Positions 36,159-46,362 of a stretch of DNA of 64,000 nucleotides are shown here, piece by piece (position 1 is the first letter of the stretch; each line of letters starts with the position of its first letter). A program made the translations under genes and the position numbers. The DNA lies in assembly GCF_900095205.1 (NCBI RefSeq), contig NZ_LT606951.1:1178001-1242000 (forward strand), given 5' to 3'. Below the pieces are notes generated by a model. That model was not told the DNA's origin. It made no database searches and saw nothing but the letters and a program-made list of their open reading frames with translations. Source of the stretch: Polynucleobacter necessarius. GTDB lineage: Bacteria; Pseudomonadota; Gammaproteobacteria; Burkholderiales; Burkholderiaceae.

Positions 36159-37268
36159 TTAGGAAGACATCCAAAAATGCTTCATCTCTGGAAGGTCTTG
36201 CATGCCTCGCTCATACCCATACCGAATAGCTGGCTCCATGATTTTTTCTGGGTCTACAACACTCATCGTTTTTCTACCAGGGAGCATGCCAACAACTACC
36301 AACTTGGTCTTTGTACCAGCAGCCTCTAGATCCTTTACTTCTTGCAATATTGTATTTGGCAGATGATTCAAGCGTAGACCTTCCTTTTCTTGCGCCGCAA
36401 TCGTATCTGCCAAGGCAACCACTAATGCTCGCCTAGACCCCGCAACAATATCGCAATGGGCAGTTGATCCAATGCTGCCAGCCTGCAGACTCGATCCTTA
36501 ACCCAGAGGTTGGGCCAGAGTGACGCCAGGCGCTGAAGCACTAGCCGCACACGCATCAATCACCCCCACCCCAGAATCTGGAGAAATCACCAAACGCTCA
36601 GCGGTATAACAATCAATTGTGGTGATATACATCTTTTGCGGGATATTTTTCATATCACCTAAGAAAACTTTGATATTGGCTTGAAACTTTTCAGATGGTA
36701 TTGATTTTGCAGCCATTGCAGCATGACCAATCGCTTGAATGGTATCTGGATTTCCATCTTTAGCATTCAACCCCATTTTCATGACACGCTCTTAGCTAGG
36801 AGAGAATTTTTTTGTTGGCACCAACTTTGCCATGATCTTGGGATAGTCAGCCAATAAATTAAATTCTGCTGAGAATAGATCCAAGCGACTACCCAATAGC
36901 GCACTTCCTAACACCGCACCGGCAGATGTACCAACTACGATATCAGCTAAGCGCAGATCAATACCGTTGGTTAGCATCGCATGAAAGTAGCCCACTAGAA
37001 ATGAGCTCATGTATTTGGAACCGCCGCCTAAAACAATCGCCCTATCCTTTCCTTTGCCTGGAGGATTTTTGTAAGAGATTGGGTGAGCTAGGCCATCATT
37101 CCAAGCGGAAGTAGTTTTCTGAATCTCTTGTACATCTAGTGCTCGAACTTCGTCTATCGTCTTTTTGGATAAGGGTGGTGAATGCGCAAAAGACTGCGTG
37201 CTCGTAGCTACGGCAGCAACACCTACAGCAGAGGTTTTCAGAAAATGTCGGCGATCGGATTGGGTCAT
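36159..37268 (-). pseudogene. patatin-like phospholipase with signal peptide, frameshifted
   Basis: The N terminus (DRRHFLKTSAVGVAAVATST) looks like an export signal with twin Arg. The catalytic domain starts with the oxyanion glycine motif IVLGGGSKYMSSFLVGY and the nucleophile serine in VVGTSAGAVLGSALLGS. The frame ends near 36790 (KKFSPS) and resumes as KMGLNAKDGNPDTIQAIGHA ... PQKMYITTIDCYTAERLVIS. It stops again near 36500, where the catalytic Asp region should be (VKDRVC visible in yet another frame), and ends with VALADTIAAQEKEGLRL. The start overlaps the preceding gene's stop by one base (TAATG), so the two were translationally coupled. Confidence 0.85.
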
Positions 37269-38955
37269 TACTCTCCTTTTACTGGGGTATTCGTTTTATA
37301 AACCTGGTTTTGTATACTCAAAGGTAATGGCTGACTTTCTGATGCGGGAATCATTACCTCAACATAAGATGCGCCATCGAAAGTATTCGCTTTTTCAATC
37401 GCTGCATCTAACTCAGCTACCGTGCTTACTCGACTAGAAAACCAGGACTCACATCCCATCGCCCCTGGAATTTGAGCGTAATTCCACTTCGCTAATTCAT
37501 CATACGACGGCCCTATCTCGCTAAGAACATTTTCAACCCCAAAAATGGAATTATTCAAAACAAAAATAATAGGCTTGATACCGTAACACCTCATAACCCC
37601 AATCTCATTGGCTGTTAATTGATGAGATCCATCTCCAGTTATTAATATCGTTCGTCCTTTTTTATTAGCCATACATATACCTTCAGCAGCAGGTGTTGCC
37701 CAACCAATAGATCCCCATAATGTCTGGGTTTGAAAGCCAACACCATCAGGTAGCCACATGGGTGTGGTATGTATGATGCAGGTACCTGTCTCTACAACTA
37801 ATACATCACCTGTTTTCAGTATTTTTTGTAAGCGTGGATAAAATTCTCTGAAGATGTGGGATCGCTTGGCAACCCTACCAGAGGCATTTGTGCTTGCTGG
37901 CCTTTTATGGGAGAGCCGACTTGAGCACTCACTTTCTGGGTTAAGCCGTCAAGGATGTCACACAACATAACACCAGCAAAATATTACCCATTCTGACAAA
38001 TTGATCCCCCAAAGTAAGTAGCTTAGATTGAGCAATGTTGTCCGCCCAAAATGTCGTGTTGAAGTCTTCAAACACCACGCCACCAATATCCAATACCAAA
38101 TCAGCACTCTCAACAGTTGCTTTTAAACTAGCCGGACTAGAACTCATGCCGTTGTATATTCCCAGGAAACTAGGATGCGCCTCAGAAATTACCGCCTTAT
38201 CCATCGGCGTTGTAGCGTATGGAATGTTGGATTGATTTAACAACTGTTGCACACGCCTTCTAGGGCGCCAAAATTAGCAGCAAACTGAGTTGGCAAAGCA
38301 ATAACCCTATTGGCGGCTTTTATTTTCTCCAAGACAAACTCTATAGCAGCCTCCAAGGAAGCTGGGTCACTTCGGGCCCTCGTGATCTCAGCAAGAGGTG
38401 AGCCTTTTATTGACTTACCAATAATAGGCATTTTGCCCAGGTCCATCGGCACAGTAATGCAGGCAGGTGCACTTAAACGCAACGCTTCTCTAATAACTCG
38501 CTCCATCTCTTCGATTGCCTTATCTGGCGTCAAATAGGCGGACACACAACAAGCTGCCTCCAACAGAGATCGAAAATTGTTATAAACACCATCCCCTAAA
38601 GTGTGATGCGTAATAAGATTCTGCCTCTGAATTTGGGTACTTGGCGCGCCAACAATATGAAAAACTGGTAAGCGCTGAGACTTTGCACCCATTACGCCAT
38701 TGATGGCACTTAGCTCACCCACACCATATGTAGCCGATAAAATGGGTGCGCCATTAATCCGGGCATACCCATCTGCGGCATAAGCTGCAATTTAACTCAT
38801 TAGCGCAAACAATCCATTGAAGCCGATCGCATGCTTCAATAGCATCATCAAATGGAAAAGAATGATCTCCAAGGAACACCAAATACTCGATCAATCCCCA
38901 AATCAGCCAAGCGATTGAGCACATATTCTGCAACCGTGATATTGGCGTTGGCCAT
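37268..38955 (-). pseudogene. thiamine-diphosphate-dependent 2-oxo acid decarboxylase (pyruvate/indolepyruvate decarboxylase-like), several frameshifts
   Basis: Pieces in order: an N terminus in two frames (ITVAEYVLNRLADLGIDRVF, then GDHSFPFDDAIEACDRL); YGVGELSAINGVMGAKSQRL with the IVGAPS region; the central domain (FLGIYNGMSSSPASLKATVE, SADLVLDIGGVVFEDFNTTF); and a C-terminal ThDP domain with the Mg-binding GDGSHQLTANEIGVMRCYG and FVLNNSIFGVENVLSE. The catalytic ELN glutamate is visible in IVCANELN. Breaks lie near 38890, 38770, 38245, 37960 and 37790. Substrate is uncertain. It sits between a lipase and a patatin gene in the same orientation. Confidence 0.87.
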
Positions 38956-38985
38956 AAACACTCCCATTTATTTGATAAATTCAAT

Positions 38986-40300
38986 CTAATCCTTTGGACA
39001 TGCATTGGCTAACGGCTTGCCAGCCACTCGATCCTTAACCCAAGCTAAATAAAAAGGCTTAGATGTTGTGGGGGTCGTAAAGTGGGATTGTTCTCCAGGC
39101 AACTGCATTCTTCCTACGCTACCGCCTAACTTGCATATTTGATCTTGATAAAGCTTATGCATTACTGGTGGAACAGCAGTATCTTTTGATCCAAAGTAAA
39201 TTTGCACCGGCGCAACGGGTTTTACTACAGGCACGCCGCCTTTTGCATTGCTTGCGCCCACGCAACTGTATTAACAGGAGTTTGCTTTAATAAAGCCGCA
39301 TAACTTAAGCCATAGTTGAAGTTGAATGTATCGCTAGCAGCATGCATACATTTATTGCTATATATCTCATTGGCTACTTTTACACCTTCATCTGTAAAGA
39401 TGTCGGCTAACTTCAGATCAGGAAAACAGCTTGCGTTCCCCAGTAATGCATCGTCGCATGAGTGAAATTAAAGACGTTATCTAAAAACATCTTTTGCGAG
39501 CCCTGAAAGTATTTATCAGCAGCAGCCTGATCCAGCTTGCCGGCTGGCGCAAGCATGGAAATATCTTGAGGAGCCAAGGCAACAAAACCAACAATATCAA
39601 GATTATCCGCTACAGTACCATTCTGCTTGATGTACTCGGGCATACCCGCTAAAGCAATTGCTGCTCCGCCACCCTGAGACCAACCATAAACCAGAGTCTT
39701 TTTATTAGCGCCTGTTTCTTTCATGGAGACTGCTGCACGCGCAGCATTGAGTGTATCCATGCCATTCGTCGCGGCCACACTATATTGATGTCTACCACCA
39801 CTGCCCAAACCTTGGTAATCAGTGACTACCAATGCATAACCTTCCTTAATAAATTCTTCAACAGCTGGAAGTCCGTAGTCCGTCCAGCAATTACCACCCA
39901 CCAAAAAATACTCATTCAGGGGCACTGCGGGATCAGTGACTTGGGATGGGCCACAATTTTGCGCTGAGCCTGTTGTGCCGTGCGCCCAACTCATTACAGG
40001 ACGACCACCCGCTGGAGCTGGTCCTACAGGCGTAACCACGAGACCAGTTGAAATAGTTTTACGTCCTGAGATAGCAGAAGAGATATAGGCAATCTTCCAA
40101 GCCTGCGCACCATTCACCGAGGTTGCTATGGATTCTTGCTTGATAACCTGCCCTAACTTACCCTCTGGTGTCCTTTTCATAACGGCAGCATAAAAAGCTT
40201 GCATTGGTGGATCCGCATAAACAACCGATGAAAGAATACTGAGTACTGCACCAAGTGCCAAAGCATAAAAACGTGTTATTTTTGCATAGGTAATAAAGGA
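38986..40300 (-). pseudogene. secreted lipase (LIP family, alpha/beta hydrolase), frameshifted
   Basis: The main piece (39413-40261) reads from ALALGAVLSILSSVVYADPP, a signal peptide, to the nucleophile elbow TLVYGWSQGGGAAIALAG. Two more pieces follow in other frames: LKLADIFTDEGVKVANEIYS, then GGVPVVKPVAPVQIYFGSKD with the C-terminal catalytic histidine in EQSHFTTPT. Breaks lie near 39415 and 39255. The probable original start region (40262-40300) also has no ATG in the right frame. The LIP family includes fungal secretory lipases and bacterial homologues; the natural substrate is unclear. Confidence 0.85.
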
Positions 40301-40448: not shown

Positions 40449-41297
40449 TTAAGACTTTTTTATCGTCGCAATCACTGGAGCATGGTCGGATGGCTGCTCC
40501 CATGTTCTAGGCTCTTTATCCACTATGCTAGTGCTACATTTTTCTTTGAGTGCTGCGCTTAATAGAATGTGGTCAATACGCATGCCAGCATTTCTTCTGA
40601 AACCCATCATGCGGTAGTCCCACCAACTAAATGTCTTGGGTGCTTGTTCAAACATTCTGAAGGAATCATTCAATCCAAGCTGAATCAACTCTTGAAATAC
40701 TTCGCGCTCTGGCGGAGAAACAAGGTTCTGACCCACCCAAGCTTTGGGATCATGCACATCCTCATCAGCTGGGGCTATATTAAAGTCGCCTAAGAGTGCT
40801 AGTCGTGAATTTTGTTGCAACTCTTCCGCTAACCAAGTTTGTAATGCGGTTAACCAACTCAACTTGTATTGGAATTTATCGCTATCTGGCGATTGACCAT
40901 TAGGGAAATACGCCGATATCAATCTCATGGGTTGAGTACCAGCAAAACATACTGTGGCCGCAAGTATTCGTTGCTGATCATCGGCGTGATTCGGAATATT
41001 TCTGATGGGCTTTAGAAACGCTGTTTCAACATCGGTCGCAATTGGCGCCAAAGCAGCTTTACGCAGAATGATCGCAACCCCGTTATAGGTTTTTTGTCCC
41101 GCAGCTAAATTCAGATAACCAGCATCCTCTAATTCTTTATGAGGATACTTATCATCAGTCAGCTTCAACTCCTGCAAGCAAAGTGCATCGATGGGTTGTT
41201 GCTTTTTTTCCTGATCCTGTAACCAGCGCAATACTTGCGGAAGGCGAACCTTGAGAGAATTCACATTCCACGCTGCTATTCGAACTGAATCAGTCAT
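40449..41297 (-). CDS. xthA: exodeoxyribonuclease III (AP endonuclease)
   Basis: Base-excision repair enzyme cutting at abasic sites and degrading DNA 3'-5'. The 282 residues show the endonuclease/exonuclease/phosphatase fold: RIAAWNVNSLKVRLPQVLRW, the metal-binding glutamate in LCLQELKLTD, GDFNIAPADEDVHDP, and the catalytic Asp-His in PSDHAPVIATI. The start overlaps the ntrC end by eight bases. The 150 or so bases after its stop hold no gene I can support. Intact. Confidence 0.95.
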   Translation of the reverse strand: MTDSVRIAAWNVNSLKVRLPQVLRWLQDQEKKQQPIDALCLQELKLTDDKYPHKELEDAGYLNLAAGQKTYNGVAIILRKAALAPIATDVETAFLKPIRNIPNHADDQQRILAATVCFAGTQPMRLISAYFPNGQSPDSDKFQYKLSWLTALQTWLAEELQQNSRLALLGDFNIAPADEDVHDPKAWVGQNLVSPPEREVFQELIQLGLNDSFRMFEQAPKTFSWWDYRMMGFRRNAGMRIDHILLSAALKEKCSTSIVDKEPRTWEQPSDHAPVIATIKKS

Positions 41298-42744
41298 CGA
41301 TTCCTAACTCTTGCAACTTTCGAGTGATAGTGTTGCGACCAATCCCCAGACGCTGGGCAGTCTCCACTCTTCTACCCCGAGTGACTTCGAGAGCAGCCTG
41401 TAACACCGCTTTTTCAAAGCGTGCAGTAAGAGCATCAAACACTTCCTTATCACTATCCTGCAACATCTTTACGGCAAGACGCCCTAAACCACTCTCCCAA
41501 TCGCCTGAGGCTACTTTAATAACGCTAGCAGAATTTGGTGCAGACTCTCCTTGAAGCACGATAGGCTGCTCATTAGCCTGAGCTACGATATCTGCAGGAA
41601 GGTCGTTCACACCAATAATATTGGCAGATATCATGACTGTTAGCCAATGACATAAGTTCTCTAATTGACGAACATTTCCAGGAAAAGGCATCGTACTGAT
41701 TTCTTTTAGCACCTCATCTGAAAGTTTTTTAGGCTCAACACCCAAAGATTTAGCGCAGCTCAGCATAAAGCGCCTTGCCAACATCGGAATATCTTCTGTG
41801 CGCTCACGCAAGGAAGGCATGCGCAAACGTATGACATTCAAACGATGCAATAGATCTTCGCGGAAAAGCCCTGCAGCTACCCTGGCTTCCAAATTTTGAT
41901 GGGTTGAAGCAATGATGCGAACATTAGCCTTAATAGGATCTTGACCGCCGATGCGATAAAAATGACCATCAGACAACACTCTTAATAAACGGGTTTGAAG
42001 GTCAAACGGCAGATCTCCCACCTCACCTAAAAATAGAGTTCCGCCATCTGCTTGCTCAAAACGTCCGCGACGCAAGGTCTGCGCACCTGGAAAAGCACTA
42101 CGTTCATGGCCAAATAATTCCGATTCCAGAAAATCTTTAGGTACAGCAGAGGTGCTCAATGAGATAAATGGGCCTTTAGCGCAAGGACTGTGTTTGTGTA
42201 ACGCATGGGCCACCAATTCTTTGCCTGTACCAGATTCACCAGTGATGAGAACGGTAACATTGGATTGCGCCAAACGACCTATCGCACGGAAAATCTCTTG
42301 CATTGCTGGTGCTTGATGACCAATAATCTCAGTCGCATCTTGTCTCCATGCGGTCAATTCTTTTTTGCCAGATTCATTGCGGATGCCTTGCTCTACCGCA
42401 CGATGAATTAACTCAACTGCCTTTTCCACGTCGAACGGTTTTGTAAGGTATTCAAAAGCACCGCCTTGAAATGAGGAGACTGCAGAATCCAAGTCTGAAT
42501 GTGCTGTCATGATGATGACTGGTAATTGCGGATGGCTTGCCTTCACATGTTGCAATAGATCTAAACCATTACCGCGTGGCATGCGAATATCAGAAATCAA
42601 AACCTGAGGGGTTTCTTTTTCAAGAGCATTGAGAACGTCATTGGGATTAGAAAAGCTCTTATGCGGAATATTTTCGCGCGATAAAGCTTTTTCGAGGACC
42701 CAACGAATAGATTGATCGTCATCTACGATCCAAATTGGTTTCAT
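41290..42744 (-). pseudogene. ntrC: nitrogen regulator NtrC, frame open but ATPase/sigma54 motifs destroyed
   Basis: NtrC (NR-I) activates sigma54 promoters when phosphorylated by NtrB. The 484-residue frame is complete: receiver with aspartate in VLISDIRMPRGNGLD, Walker A in ITGESGTGKELVAHAL and a Fis-type C-terminal helix-turn-helix (VETAQRLGIGRNTITRKL). However, the sigma54-contacting GAFTGA loop reads SAFPGA (residues 216-221, bases 42082-42099), and Walker B FLDE reads FLGE (Asp240 to Gly, codon 42025-42027). Both changes hit residues needed for activation and ATP hydrolysis, so I expect no activator function. DNA binding may persist. ntrB, which overlaps its start by four bases, is also broken. 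Confidence 0.75.
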
Positions 42745-43822
42745 GATGCTTTCTCCTGCCTACGGTATGGAATTTGAATATGAAAGTTAGTACGTCCAGG
42801 GCGACTATTACAAGTAATAAATCCCTGATGCTGTTGAACAAAAGTTTGCGCTAAGGTGAGCCCAAGCCCACCACCACCCTCCCCACCCCCGATACCAAGA
42901 GAAAGAAGATGCGCTCAATAATTTCTTCTGGAATACCAGGACCGTTATCAATCACGTGCAGATCCATCGCTAATTTATAGCGATGTTTAGCAATCGTGAC
43001 CGAACGCGCTACCCGAGTCTTTAACTCTATTTGCGCTACTCCAGTACGAATCTCTTCAGTCAGCGCTTGGGCTGCGTTGTGAACAATATTGAGAGTTGCC
43101 TGAATCAACTGCTCTCGATCCCCAAGCAAATCAGGGCAAGCTCGTATCGTAATTGCGAATAATGCGCGCAGACCTTTTGGAAACTCAGCTAGTACTAAAC
43201 TACGCACACGCTCAAGGGCTTCATGCACATTAAAGGATTCCATCACATGTGCTTTGCGATGAGGTGCCAACAGGCGATCTACCAATGTTTGCAGGCGATC
43301 AGATTCTTTAATAATGACTTGCGTATATTCTCGCAATCCTTTTTCTGGCAGCTCAAACTCGAGTAATTGAGCTGCCCCACGAATACCACCTAATGGATTT
43401 TTAATCTCATGCGCTAAATTGCGCATCAACTGTTTATTTGCTTCAACTTGCTGCGTTACGCGTTCATCTCGCTCACTACGCAACTGTTGATCGATAGGAA
43501 ACCACTCCATCATGATGAGAGCTGGATCTTCCAAGGCCGCCACAACCACATGTGCCGGAATAGTCTCTTGATGAATACTGCTAGGCATCGAATGCAACAT
43601 CATTTCTTGACGTTGGGCTGACACATGCCCTTGCTTCACTTCGAAAATTATCGAACTTAATGCTTCGTTATCGCCAAATAAATTGTGCACAGATTGACCC
43701 TCAAGTGATTTACGTGAAAGATCCAATGCTGAACTCAGTAGCTGGATTCACATATACCAATTGTTGTTGGTTCTCAGCCGCAAATACCACGATGGCATTG
43801 GGCATCTGATCAAGCAATGTCG
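42741..43822 (-). pseudogene. ntrB: nitrogen sensor kinase NtrB, frameshifted at both ends
   Basis: NtrB phosphorylates NtrC. The start of its PAS domain (LLDQMPNAIVVFAAENQQQL, then VYVNPATE) is in a different frame from the main body, with a break near 43735, and no ATG precedes it; only a TTG exists directly after the glnA terminator. The body has the histidine box MRNLAHEIKNPLGGIRGAAQ and N/G1 boxes (NIVHNAAQALTEE, DNGPGIPEEI). It shifts near 42885 inside the G2 box; the proper end (GLGLTLAQTFVQQHQGF) is in another frame and overlaps ntrC by ATGA. Confidence 0.88.
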
Positions 43823-43823
43823 G

Positions 43824-43850
43824 AAAAAAGGAGCAGCCGAAGCTGCTCCC
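43824..43850 (-). terminator. rho-independent terminator of glnA
   Basis: Read on the minus strand: GGAGCAGC, loop TTCG, GCTGCTCC, then six T. This is an eight-base-pair stem with a stable UUCG tetraloop, about 47 bases after the glnA stop. It separates glnA from the ntrB remnant, which would need readthrough or its own promoter. Confidence 0.92.
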
Positions 43851-43896
43851 TTAAACGAATTGCGCAACAGACCTGCGCTCAAGTTCTCTCCTTCGC

Positions 43897-45312
43897 TTAC
43901 AGGGAGTAGTACATATCAAATTCGATTGGATGGGTTGTCATACGGAAACGTGTGACATCTTCCATCTTCAAATTGATATATGCATCGATCATAGATTCAG
44001 TGAATACTCCACCGCGAGTCAAGAACTCGTGATCTTTCTTCAATGCATCCAATGCTTCTTTCAAGCTGGCGCAAACGGTTGGGATCTTTGCGTCTTCTTC
44101 TGGAGGCAAGTTATACAAGTTCTTGTCAGCAGCTTCACCTGGTTGAATCTTGTTTTGCACGCCGTCCAAACCAGCCATCAACAAGGCAGAGAATGCCAAG
44201 TATGGGTTAGCCAATGGATCTGGGAAACGAGTCTCAATACGACGGCCCTTAGGACTTGGAACGTGTGGAATACGGATAGAAGCAGAACGGTTACGTGCTG
44301 AGTAAGCCAATTTAACCGGGGCCTCAAAACCTGGAACCAAACGCTTGTATGAGTTTGTACCTGGGTTAGTAATCGCGTTCAATGCCTTAGCGTGCTTAAT
44401 GATGCCGCCGATGTAGAACAGAGCAAACTCTGACAAACCAGCATAACCATTACCAGCAAATAAGTTCTCGCCATTCTTCCAAACAGATTGGTGAACGTGC
44501 ATACCAGAACCGTTATCGCCAACAACTGGCTTAGGCATAAATGTTGCTGTCTTGCCATAAGCATGTGCTACGTTTTGAATAACGTATTTCTGCCAGATAG
44601 TCCAGTCAGCGCGCTGTACCAATGTGCTGAACTTTGTACCCAATTCGTTTTGGCCTTGACCAGCAACCTCATGGTGATGAACTTCAACTGGAATGCCCAA
44701 TGATTCAAGAATCAAGCACATTTCAGAACGCATATCTTGGAATGTGTCTACAGGAGCAACTGGGAGGTAACCGCCTTTTTTGCCTGGACGGTGACCAGTA
44801 TTACCTCCTTCAATTTCAGCACTAGATGACCATGGAGCTTCTTCGGAATCAATTTTCACGAAGCAACCCTGCATATCGGCACCCCAACGAACGCCGTCAA
44901 AAATAAAGAATTCTGGCTCTGGACCAAAGTAAGCAGCATCGCCTAAGCCTGTGCTCTTCAAATACGCTTCAGCGCGTTTAGCGATAGAACGTGGATCACG
45001 GTCGTAACCTTTGCCGTCTGCTGGCTCGATAACGTCGCATGTCAGAACCAATGTTGGCTCTTCATAGAAAGGATCGATGTAAGCAGCTGTTGGGTCTGGT
45101 TTGAGCAACATGTCTGATGCTTCAATACCCTTCCAACCAGCAATTGATGAGCCGTCAAATGCATGACCACTCTCAAATTTGTCTTCGTCAAAAGCAGAGA
45201 TAGGAACTGTCGTGTGTTGCTCTTTACCCTTTGTATCTACAAAGCGAAAATCAACAAAAATACATTCTTTCTCTTTAACCAACTTCATCACATCAGCGAC
45301 GGTCTTCGTCAT
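43897..45312 (-). CDS. glnA: glutamine synthetase type I
   Basis: ATP-dependent synthesis of glutamine from glutamate and ammonium; dodecamer. The 471 residues are full length. Conserved parts are [17 protein letters not shown], the metal site [25 protein letters not shown] and [11 protein letters not shown]. The tyrosine that is adenylylated in enteric enzymes lies in [10 protein letters not shown], so GlnE control is possible. The ammonia-assimilation enzyme is intact while its classical regulators NtrB and NtrC, next downstream, are not. NtrC/sigma54-type sites lie upstream. Confidence 0.98.
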
Positions 45313-45376
45313 GCAAATCTCCCCTGTTAACTAAATTCGGAATTAAAACTTAAGGCATACACCCTTGTTTATTCCA

Positions 45377-45392
45377 GGCACCAAACATGCCT
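45377..45392 (-). promoter_or_regulatory. candidate sigma54 (-24/-12) promoter of glnA
   Basis: Read on the minus strand the block is AGGCATGTTTGGTGCC: GG and GC are separated by ten bases as sigma54 requires, with GGCA at -24 and TGC at -12. It lies 65 bases upstream of the glnA start. The match to TGGCAC-N5-TTGCA is good but not perfect (-24 begins with A, and -12 has GTGC). Confidence 0.5.
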
Positions 45393-45494
45393 AATGGATG
45401 TATGTAATTTACTGAAGCAAACAAATGGGAACCCTTATTATCGCACTATTAAAAAGCGCTCAATTACCACGCATATAGCCTAAAAAAACCGATT

Positions 45495-45511
45495 TGCACC
45501 TTTTTAGTGCC
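45495..45511. promoter_or_regulatory. candidate NtrC-binding site upstream of glnA
   Basis: TGCACC-TTTTT-AGTGCC fits the NtrC consensus TGCACY-N5-RGTGCA with one mismatch at the last base. It lies a little over 100 bases upstream of the candidate sigma54 promoter, as at enhancer-type glnA promoters. A weaker similar block is at 45442-45459 (CGCACT ... AGCGCT). The DNA site survives though ntrC is damaged. Confidence 0.55.
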
Positions 45512-45518
45512 TAGCAGA

Positions 45519-46362
45519 CTAGCTGATATCGTGAATTTCGTAGCCCAGCTCTTGCGTGCCCGTTCTTAAAGCAATCCAGGCACTATCCAGCAGGTTGGCA
45601 TTGCCTTTGATGCCCAATTCGATATGGCGTTGAGCATAGACGCCGCCCTTGGCGGGATCCGCCAACAGAGGGTAGGCTAAAGACCTTCACCCCGGGAAAG
45701 CTGGCCTCAATGCGCTCCATTAGTGGCGTCAAAGTGGACTCAATTCCTTTAGGCACGATAAAACTCTGTTCCGCCCAATTTTCTTGATGAAATAAATCTT
45801 TGTAATGCGTATCCAAACACCAAACCATCATCGGGGCAGCCATTACTGGGAAGCCAGGAACAAAGTGGTGCTCACGGATCCGAAAGCCTGGGATTTGGTT
45901 ATACGGATTTGGAATGATTTCACTGCCGATGGGAAACTCGCCCATCTTGAAGCGGTGCTGGTTTTCAGGAGTATTTAAATCAGACTTAATTGGATCGCCC
46001 TCAGCCATCGATTGATTGCGGCCAGCAATCAATTCTTGCGCTGTCGGATACAATTCTGTTTTCGTTCCCAATGCAAGCGCCGCGCATTGACGAGTGTGAT
46101 CATCTGGTGTCGCACCAATACCGCCTGTACTAAACACCACATCTCCACTAGCAAAACTTTCTTTAGGGTGGCAGTATTTGCTCGGGGTCATCAGCAACAT
46201 ACTTTGCCCAAGCTAGACTCAGTCCGCGCTCATTGGGCAATTCAATGAGCTTACTCATATGCTTATCTTGTCGCCGACCAGACAAAATCTCATCGCCAAT
46301 CACAATTAAACCGAAACGGCGCTGTTCTTTTTTGTCTCTTCGACTTCTACTTTTTTCATCAT
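45519..46362 (-). pseudogene. CinA/MoaB-like competence-damage protein A (molybdopterin-binding fold), frameshifted
   Basis: The N terminus (RFGLIVIGDEILSGRRQDKH) is in another frame from the probable ATG at 46362; a one-base indel lies in the A-run near 46330. A second break near 46190 precedes ESFASGDVVFSTGGIGATPD, the conserved MoCF signature. The C terminus shifts near 45650: ADPAKGGVYAQRHIELGIKG in one frame against a meaningless tail in the open frame. About 270 residues would be expected. Family members act in NAD-cofactor repair or unknown roles. The EI24 gene is immediately upstream. Confidence 0.85.

Follow-up and report, generated by a model that had tools for sequence, protein, structure and literature searches.

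Shared and conserved changes in the sigma54-contact loop and Walker B motif of Polynucleobacter NtrC point to a sigma54-independent regulator

The window analysed here is a stretch of 64,000 nucleotides from Polynucleobacter necessarius (contig NZ_LT606951.1). Its minus strand carries, in order, glnA (43897..45312, 471 aa, intact), a remnant of ntrB (42745..43896) and ntrC (41290..42744). The ntrC gene is an open frame of 484 aa whose stop codon occupies 41290-41292, while translation of the same interval on the plus strand is full of stops. With the NCBIfam model for ntrC the encoded protein scored 641.1 bits, above the cut-off of 558.6, and it contains the full set of receiver, AAA+ and Fis-type helix-turn-helix domains; both the score and the gene order identify it as an ortholog of NtrC (NR(I)). 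An earlier reading made from the sequence alone had described an open, full-length ntrC here, with SAFPGA and FLGE in place of GAFTGA and FLDE, and the letters bear this out. Alignment to the solved NtrC-family activators 4l4u and 1ny5 places SAFPGA (42082..42099, minus strand) on the GAFTGA loop that contacts sigma54, and FLGE (42022..42033, minus strand) on the Walker B motif, where it amounts to Asp240Gly. The Walker A motif GESGTGKE (42217..42240, minus strand) is whole and the phospho-acceptor Asp52 (42589..42591, minus strand) is kept, with Lys175 of the former and Asp52 being invariant across the 130 genomes read. The protein lacks both the loop Thr and the complete pair of Walker motifs of a sigma54 activator, and its altered sigma54-contact motif combined with a retained phosphorylation site are two features of the Rhodobacter capsulatus type of NtrC, which is reported to activate sigma70 polymerase.

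The genome that holds the window (1,934,415 bases, 99.92% complete, nearest named relatives Polynucleobacter) carries damage around this gene. The earlier reading had noted a frameshifted ntrB, and the lesion proved heavier than that: compared with the intact copies of relatives, ntrB contains several frame-changing length differences, the last of which is uncompensated and removes the end of the ATP-binding domain, and its longest open piece spans 42851-43726. Among 124 readable loci of the genus (six that were too short were left out) ntrB was intact in 122 and broken only here and in genome G023. In the window's genome the ammonium transporter gene (amtB) is also in pieces, the ATP-grasp gene is split and the NtrC-type site II of glnA is disrupted, with the glnA and ntrC frames open. 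At otherwise invariant positions NtrC has three private residues (L205F, G216S and G431S) plus one inserted residue; this count of private changes is the third highest of 102 sequences compared (the P-like rows defined below), after G017 (8) and G011 (7), the median being 0. Pairwise dN/dS of this ntrC was ~0.02 against three relatives, with dS saturated. It appears that ntrC may be starting to decay in this genome and that nitrogen control may be failing, though not through Pro219 and Gly240. Minus-strand open reading frames at 36159-40261 and 45583-46200 of the window, judged by eye from the list of frames, resemble fragments of longer genes and look like what a genome rich in broken genes would contain.

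According to the sequence-only reading, such a gene would be a hidden pseudogene, its essential motifs destroyed and its product at most a passive DNA binder. The broken ntrB, amtB and site II and the private changes in ntrC are consistent with this, as is the report, in the part of the source available to us, that a Thr to Pro change in the GAFTGA motif inactivated a NifA (PMC4641369). The reading depends on whether the altered motifs are confined to this genome, and a survey of 186 genomes of the genus indicates that, Ser216 apart, they are not. NtrC was found above the family cut-off in 175 genomes, and ntrC was read in 130, mainly complete or rpoN-bearing ones, leaving out 56. The motif GxFTGA was present in only 24 of the 130; the Thr was gone in 106, Pro219 was present in 94 and Gly240 in 52. 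Removing three genomes with GAFANA and one with AQFGNT from the 106 leaves 102 P-like rows, in which position 219 is Pro (94), Gln (4), Ala (2), Leu (1) or Ser (1) and position 240 is Gly (52), Asp (49) or Asn (1). Asp52, Lys102, Thr80 and Lys175 are unchanged in all 102 and Glu241 is kept in 101, and Ser216 occurs in the window's genome only. Two of the three odd motif residues, Pro219 and Gly240, are inherited and shared across relatives, and their recurrence rules out chance or sequencing error as their source. Loops altered in other ways were seen in further NtrC groups, namely AQFGNT or AWYGAT (G001 and others) and GAFANA (G003, G025 and G015), and are possibly independent losses of the sigma54 contact. 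Three single-contig genomes rated 99-100% complete (G085, G088 and G100) had no match at the NtrC level (best E 6.5e-59, 1.4e-24 and 3.4e-47, respectively), so that outright loss of ntrC is possible within the genus.

Selection on ntrC was estimated from pairwise dN/dS (NG86, pairs with dS 0.2-2; 6 of the 130 rows fell outside all groups). The median was 0.020 for the GxFTGA group (24 genomes, 45 pairs), 0.025 for genomes lacking the Thr but retaining FLDE (48 genomes, 364 pairs) and 0.022 for the FLGE group (334 pairs among 48 of its 52 genomes, the window's genome G000 and G002, G023 and G017 being set aside as possibly relaxed). In the same order, values were 0.011, 0.016 and 0.018 for the AAA+ domain and 0.024, 0.017 and 0.000 for the L1 loop; the linkers were higher, at 0.04 to 0.34. 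A median of ~0.02 rules out decay of ntrC across the clade. Moreover, Pro219 is written in all four of its codons (43, 25, 19 and 7 times) and Gly240 likewise in four (45, 5, 1 and 1), such that both codons show synonymous turnover and no amino-acid turnover, indicating that the new residues themselves are held, Pro most clearly. With dozens of species sharing this Pro and this Gly under such low dN/dS, codons 219 and 240 turning over only synonymously and ntrB intact at nearly every readable locus, we regard the pseudogene reading as improbable. The evidence gives no support for taking SAFPGA and FLGE as marks of a dead gene: relatives with an intact ntrB-ntrC pair carry GAFPGA and FLGE at a median dN/dS of ~0.02. 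This is largely the observation that the sequence-only reading had itself named as counting against it, relatives with working nitrogen control that share the motifs; nitrogen control is likely to be functional in those relatives, and only the Ser is private. Its statement that the nitrogen two-component system is dead holds to the extent that ntrB is truly broken in the window's genome, but any failure of nitrogen control would not run through Pro219 or Gly240.

The word "destroyed" finds no support at Pro219 and Gly240, which are shared and selected, Ser216 alone being private. On sigma54 the earlier reading is supported, in that the contact of the window's NtrC with it is almost certainly gone. 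Because the Thr of GAFTGA contacts sigma54 (reported in the accessible part of PMC2941729) and its replacement by Pro inactivated the NifA cited above, activation of sigma54 by this NtrC is very unlikely. The distribution of rpoN, which encodes sigma54, was compared with that of the loop. A family search matched 68 of the 186 genomes, 67 of them above the cut-off (54 of 144 among good-quality genomes), and gave no match in the window's genome. Here, G165, with a below-cut-off remnant containing stops, was counted as lacking rpoN, and G070, whose rpoN is in two pieces, was counted as a carrier; G108 has two rpoN genes. Among the 130 genomes, 24 combined GxFTGA with rpoN, none had GxFTGA without rpoN, 32 had another loop with rpoN and 74 another loop without it; thus, all 74 genomes without rpoN above the cut-off lack the Thr and all 24 GxFTGA genomes carry rpoN. 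On the NtrC tree Thr219 needs 2 changes, compared with 18 for the presence of rpoN; with just 2 independent pairs available, no statistical significance is claimed for the link. We consider it likely that loss of sigma54 was the cause of the Thr loss.

The 32 genomes that have rpoN without the Thr allow a different proposal, in which GAFPGA NtrC would continue to function with sigma54, at a minimum in genomes that regained rpoN. In the basal clade the native gene order is lptB-rpoN-hpf-ptsN-hprK (lptB, hpf and hprK scored above their NCBIfam cut-offs; ptsN scored under its cut-off but has a PTS EIIA domain). Genomes with GxFTGA have rpoN at this locus in 19 of 24 cases, compared with 0 of the 32 other carriers, a few contigs being short. 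In the window's genome hpf follows lptB by ~190 nt and no rpoN remnant was detected at the locus (best tblastn E 0.068). In 13 off-locus carriers that were compared, the surroundings of rpoN fall into a small number of shared clusters; two were annotated, one containing bactofilin, GGDEF and PDZ genes and the other FlgA together with a sigma70-family factor. The tree of rpoN disagrees with that of NtrC, which suggests transfer of rpoN. All five genomes examined (G010, G012, G018, G031 and G036) encode a second activator with G[AS]FTGA and FLDE 17-26 kb from rpoN. Shared clusters with a tree unlike that of NtrC suggest that sigma54 was transferred together with its own activator. Taken together with the absence of a sigma54 box at glnA from all 72 readable genomes without GxFTGA (see below), these observations make continued work of GAFPGA NtrC with sigma54 seem to us highly improbable.

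The promoters were examined for NtrC-type sites. The E. coli NtrC consensus is TGCACCAnnnTGGTGCA (given in the available part of PMC8743547), and the pattern TGCACYNNNNNRGTGCA occurs at 408 sites across the 186 genomes, its reversed form at 25; restricted to the 119 genomes that have no rpoN above the cut-off, the counts of such 17-mers are 269 versus 13. Ten genomes contained 22 sites, and the surroundings of 18 were read: 3 of these are at glnA and 5 at an ammonium transporter gene, 8 lie in the interval that separates smpB from a circularly permuted ATP-grasp gene, and the other 2 are elsewhere. In the window, glnA has a predicted, nearly intact site I (45495..45511, minus strand), a predicted promoter-proximal site II (45443..45459, minus strand), which is the disrupted one, and a −10-like hexamer TAAATT (45406..45411, minus strand) of the putative promoter. 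A stretch matching 9 or more of 11 positions no more than 200 nt from glnA was taken as a sigma54 box. Such a box is present in all 10 basal GAFTGA genomes that were readable, in none of the 9 genomes from the second GAFTGA clade and in none of 72 others, as well as in 14 of 21 loci of other genera. Candidate boxes in P-clade glnA promoters were rejected: a recurrent hit at −80 (RGGCAT...TGCC, mostly 7/11) is part of the conserved leader, and weaker hits of 8/11 lie at scattered places. Across the P clade the leader itself (45313-45405, minus strand) shows high conservation, and its fold reaches −13.7 compared with a mean of −5.2 for column-shuffled alignments (z −3.1, 48 distinct sequences). 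In this putative structure, which has few compensatory changes, a UCC pairs with GGA in the ribosome-binding site; the leader had no match in Rfam.

What remains at glnA is a constant spacing. Of 81 distinct glnA sequences from the second GAFTGA clade and the others, 80 have a −10-like hexamer that follows the last NtrC site at exactly 30 nt, and basal-clade glnA, in addition to its sigma54 box, has TAAAAT following the NtrC site by 30 or 31 nt (9/9). The same 30-nt spacing is found in 19 of 20 amtB sequences (one is at 29) while the amtB spacer diverges, and two more amtB promoters fit by eye. Hexamers also score elsewhere, at amtB offset 33 in 15 of 20, at 21 and 42 in 9 of 20, and at glnA offset 52 in 18 of 81. 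No hexamer was present at 30 nt in three readable basal-clade amtB promoters nor, by eye, at the ATP-grasp gene, where some genomes have at most a possible hexamer near 40. For glnA, the best −35 match scored below shuffled sequence (1.89 vs 2.53 and 1.67 vs 2.61); at amtB it was only slightly below (2.35 vs 2.60), and basal glnA gave 2.44 vs 2.51. As read from sequence, this anatomy resembles that of a sigma70 promoter that depends on an activator, whose centre would lie near −51, counting from the hexamer.

An NtrC that only represses or blocks sigma70 promoters after sigma54 loss would bind the same sites with no activation. Both promoter kinds coexist at glnA of the basal clade, Herbaspirillum glnA has two oppositely regulated promoters (to go by the title of a reference cited in PMC5648810), and Caulobacter NtrC is described as both activator and repressor in the part of PMC10274813 available to us. 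Against repression, glnA and amtB have no clear −35 and the NtrC site lies upstream of the −35 region; it would also make little sense to repress an ammonium transporter under nitrogen limitation. We prefer activation because a clear −35 is missing and the ammonium transporter gene has the same geometry, and we think a purely repressive role unlikely, if still a serious contender. From these comparisons we infer that NtrC binds the 17-mers, that transcription begins at sigma70 start sites, that the sign of control is activating, and the order of events set out below.

Precedents exist for an activator of this kind. According to the part of PMC10274813 available to us, R. capsulatus NtrC, which lacks GAFTGA, activates sigma70 polymerase and needs phosphorylation and ATP binding but not hydrolysis, and Caulobacter crescentus NtrC, also without GAFTGA, is needed for glnA expression and is linked to sigma70 promoters. 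By analogy, Polynucleobacter NtrC would bind ATP without hydrolysing it, and an intact Walker A with an altered Walker B would suit the R. capsulatus mode. As far as that source describes these systems, they also differ. The L1 loop is deleted in R. capsulatus, whereas it is kept but substituted in Polynucleobacter, where the window's genome has no sigma54 and the promoters have a single fixed 30-nt spacing. In C. crescentus eight residues of the loop are deleted and Walker A and B residues are needed, unlike the Polynucleobacter FLGE clade without the Walker B Asp, and its genome is said to have sigma54-dependent genes, unlike the window's genome without rpoN. Within the accessible text of PMC3162934, TyrR, DhaR, HupR and VpsR are given as relatives with a defective GAFTGA that have given up the use of sigma54, some 110 homologs of this kind are reported with Pro preferred at the Thr position, and two genomes with a putative activator but without sigma54 are discussed; those proteins belong to other families, whereas in Polynucleobacter the before and after states of core NtrC occur within one genus. 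A search of the literature on Polynucleobacter rpoN, NtrC, sigma factors and nitrogen, on GAFPGA and on sigma54 independence, with most subscription journals outside its coverage, found no such report by title or abstract.

According to the proposed history, the ancestral glnA promoter would have combined a sigma54 box with NtrC sites and a −10 lying some 30 nt from one of these sites, as in the basal GAFTGA clade. The sigma54 box would then have been lost and the 30-nt promoter retained while NtrC still had GAFTGA and rpoN was still there. Subsequently, rpoN would have been lost from its native lptB-hpf locus and GAFTGA altered, mostly to GAFPGA, and in one subclade the Walker B Asp would have become Gly, with Walker A and the phosphorylation site kept. 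Bound at about −51, NtrC would take the place of the −35 contact that is missing. The system is now decaying in the window's genome, with ntrB, the ammonium transporter gene and glnA site II broken and a few private changes in ntrC. The order of these events is unsure because the NtrC tree was made by a quick method, leaves many forks open and carries long-branch warnings; in it the two GxFTGA clades are not sisters.

We are confident that the two motif changes, Pro219 and Gly240, represent an inherited, selected and sigma54-independent state. That NtrC acts as a sigma54-independent activator of sigma70-type promoters in most of Polynucleobacter is a bolder claim, which the promoter comparisons tip slightly in favour. 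More tentatively, and with the odds somewhat against it as a whole, the genus may present a natural series from an AAA+ sigma54 activator to a sigma70 activator, running through a dual promoter, a promoter switch, sigma54 loss with Thr to Pro and loss of the Walker B Asp, to an end state in which NtrC would bind ATP without hydrolysis and activate from a fixed position near −51 via a repurposed, selected GAFPGA loop. For the practice of annotation, the case shows that relatives and partner genes need checking before the loss of a catalytic motif is read as the death of a gene. If the proposal is true, much of the genus Polynucleobacter controls nitrogen without sigma54, and its species, being in different states, would offer a test of how the housekeeping polymerase can become the new partner of an ATP-driven activator.
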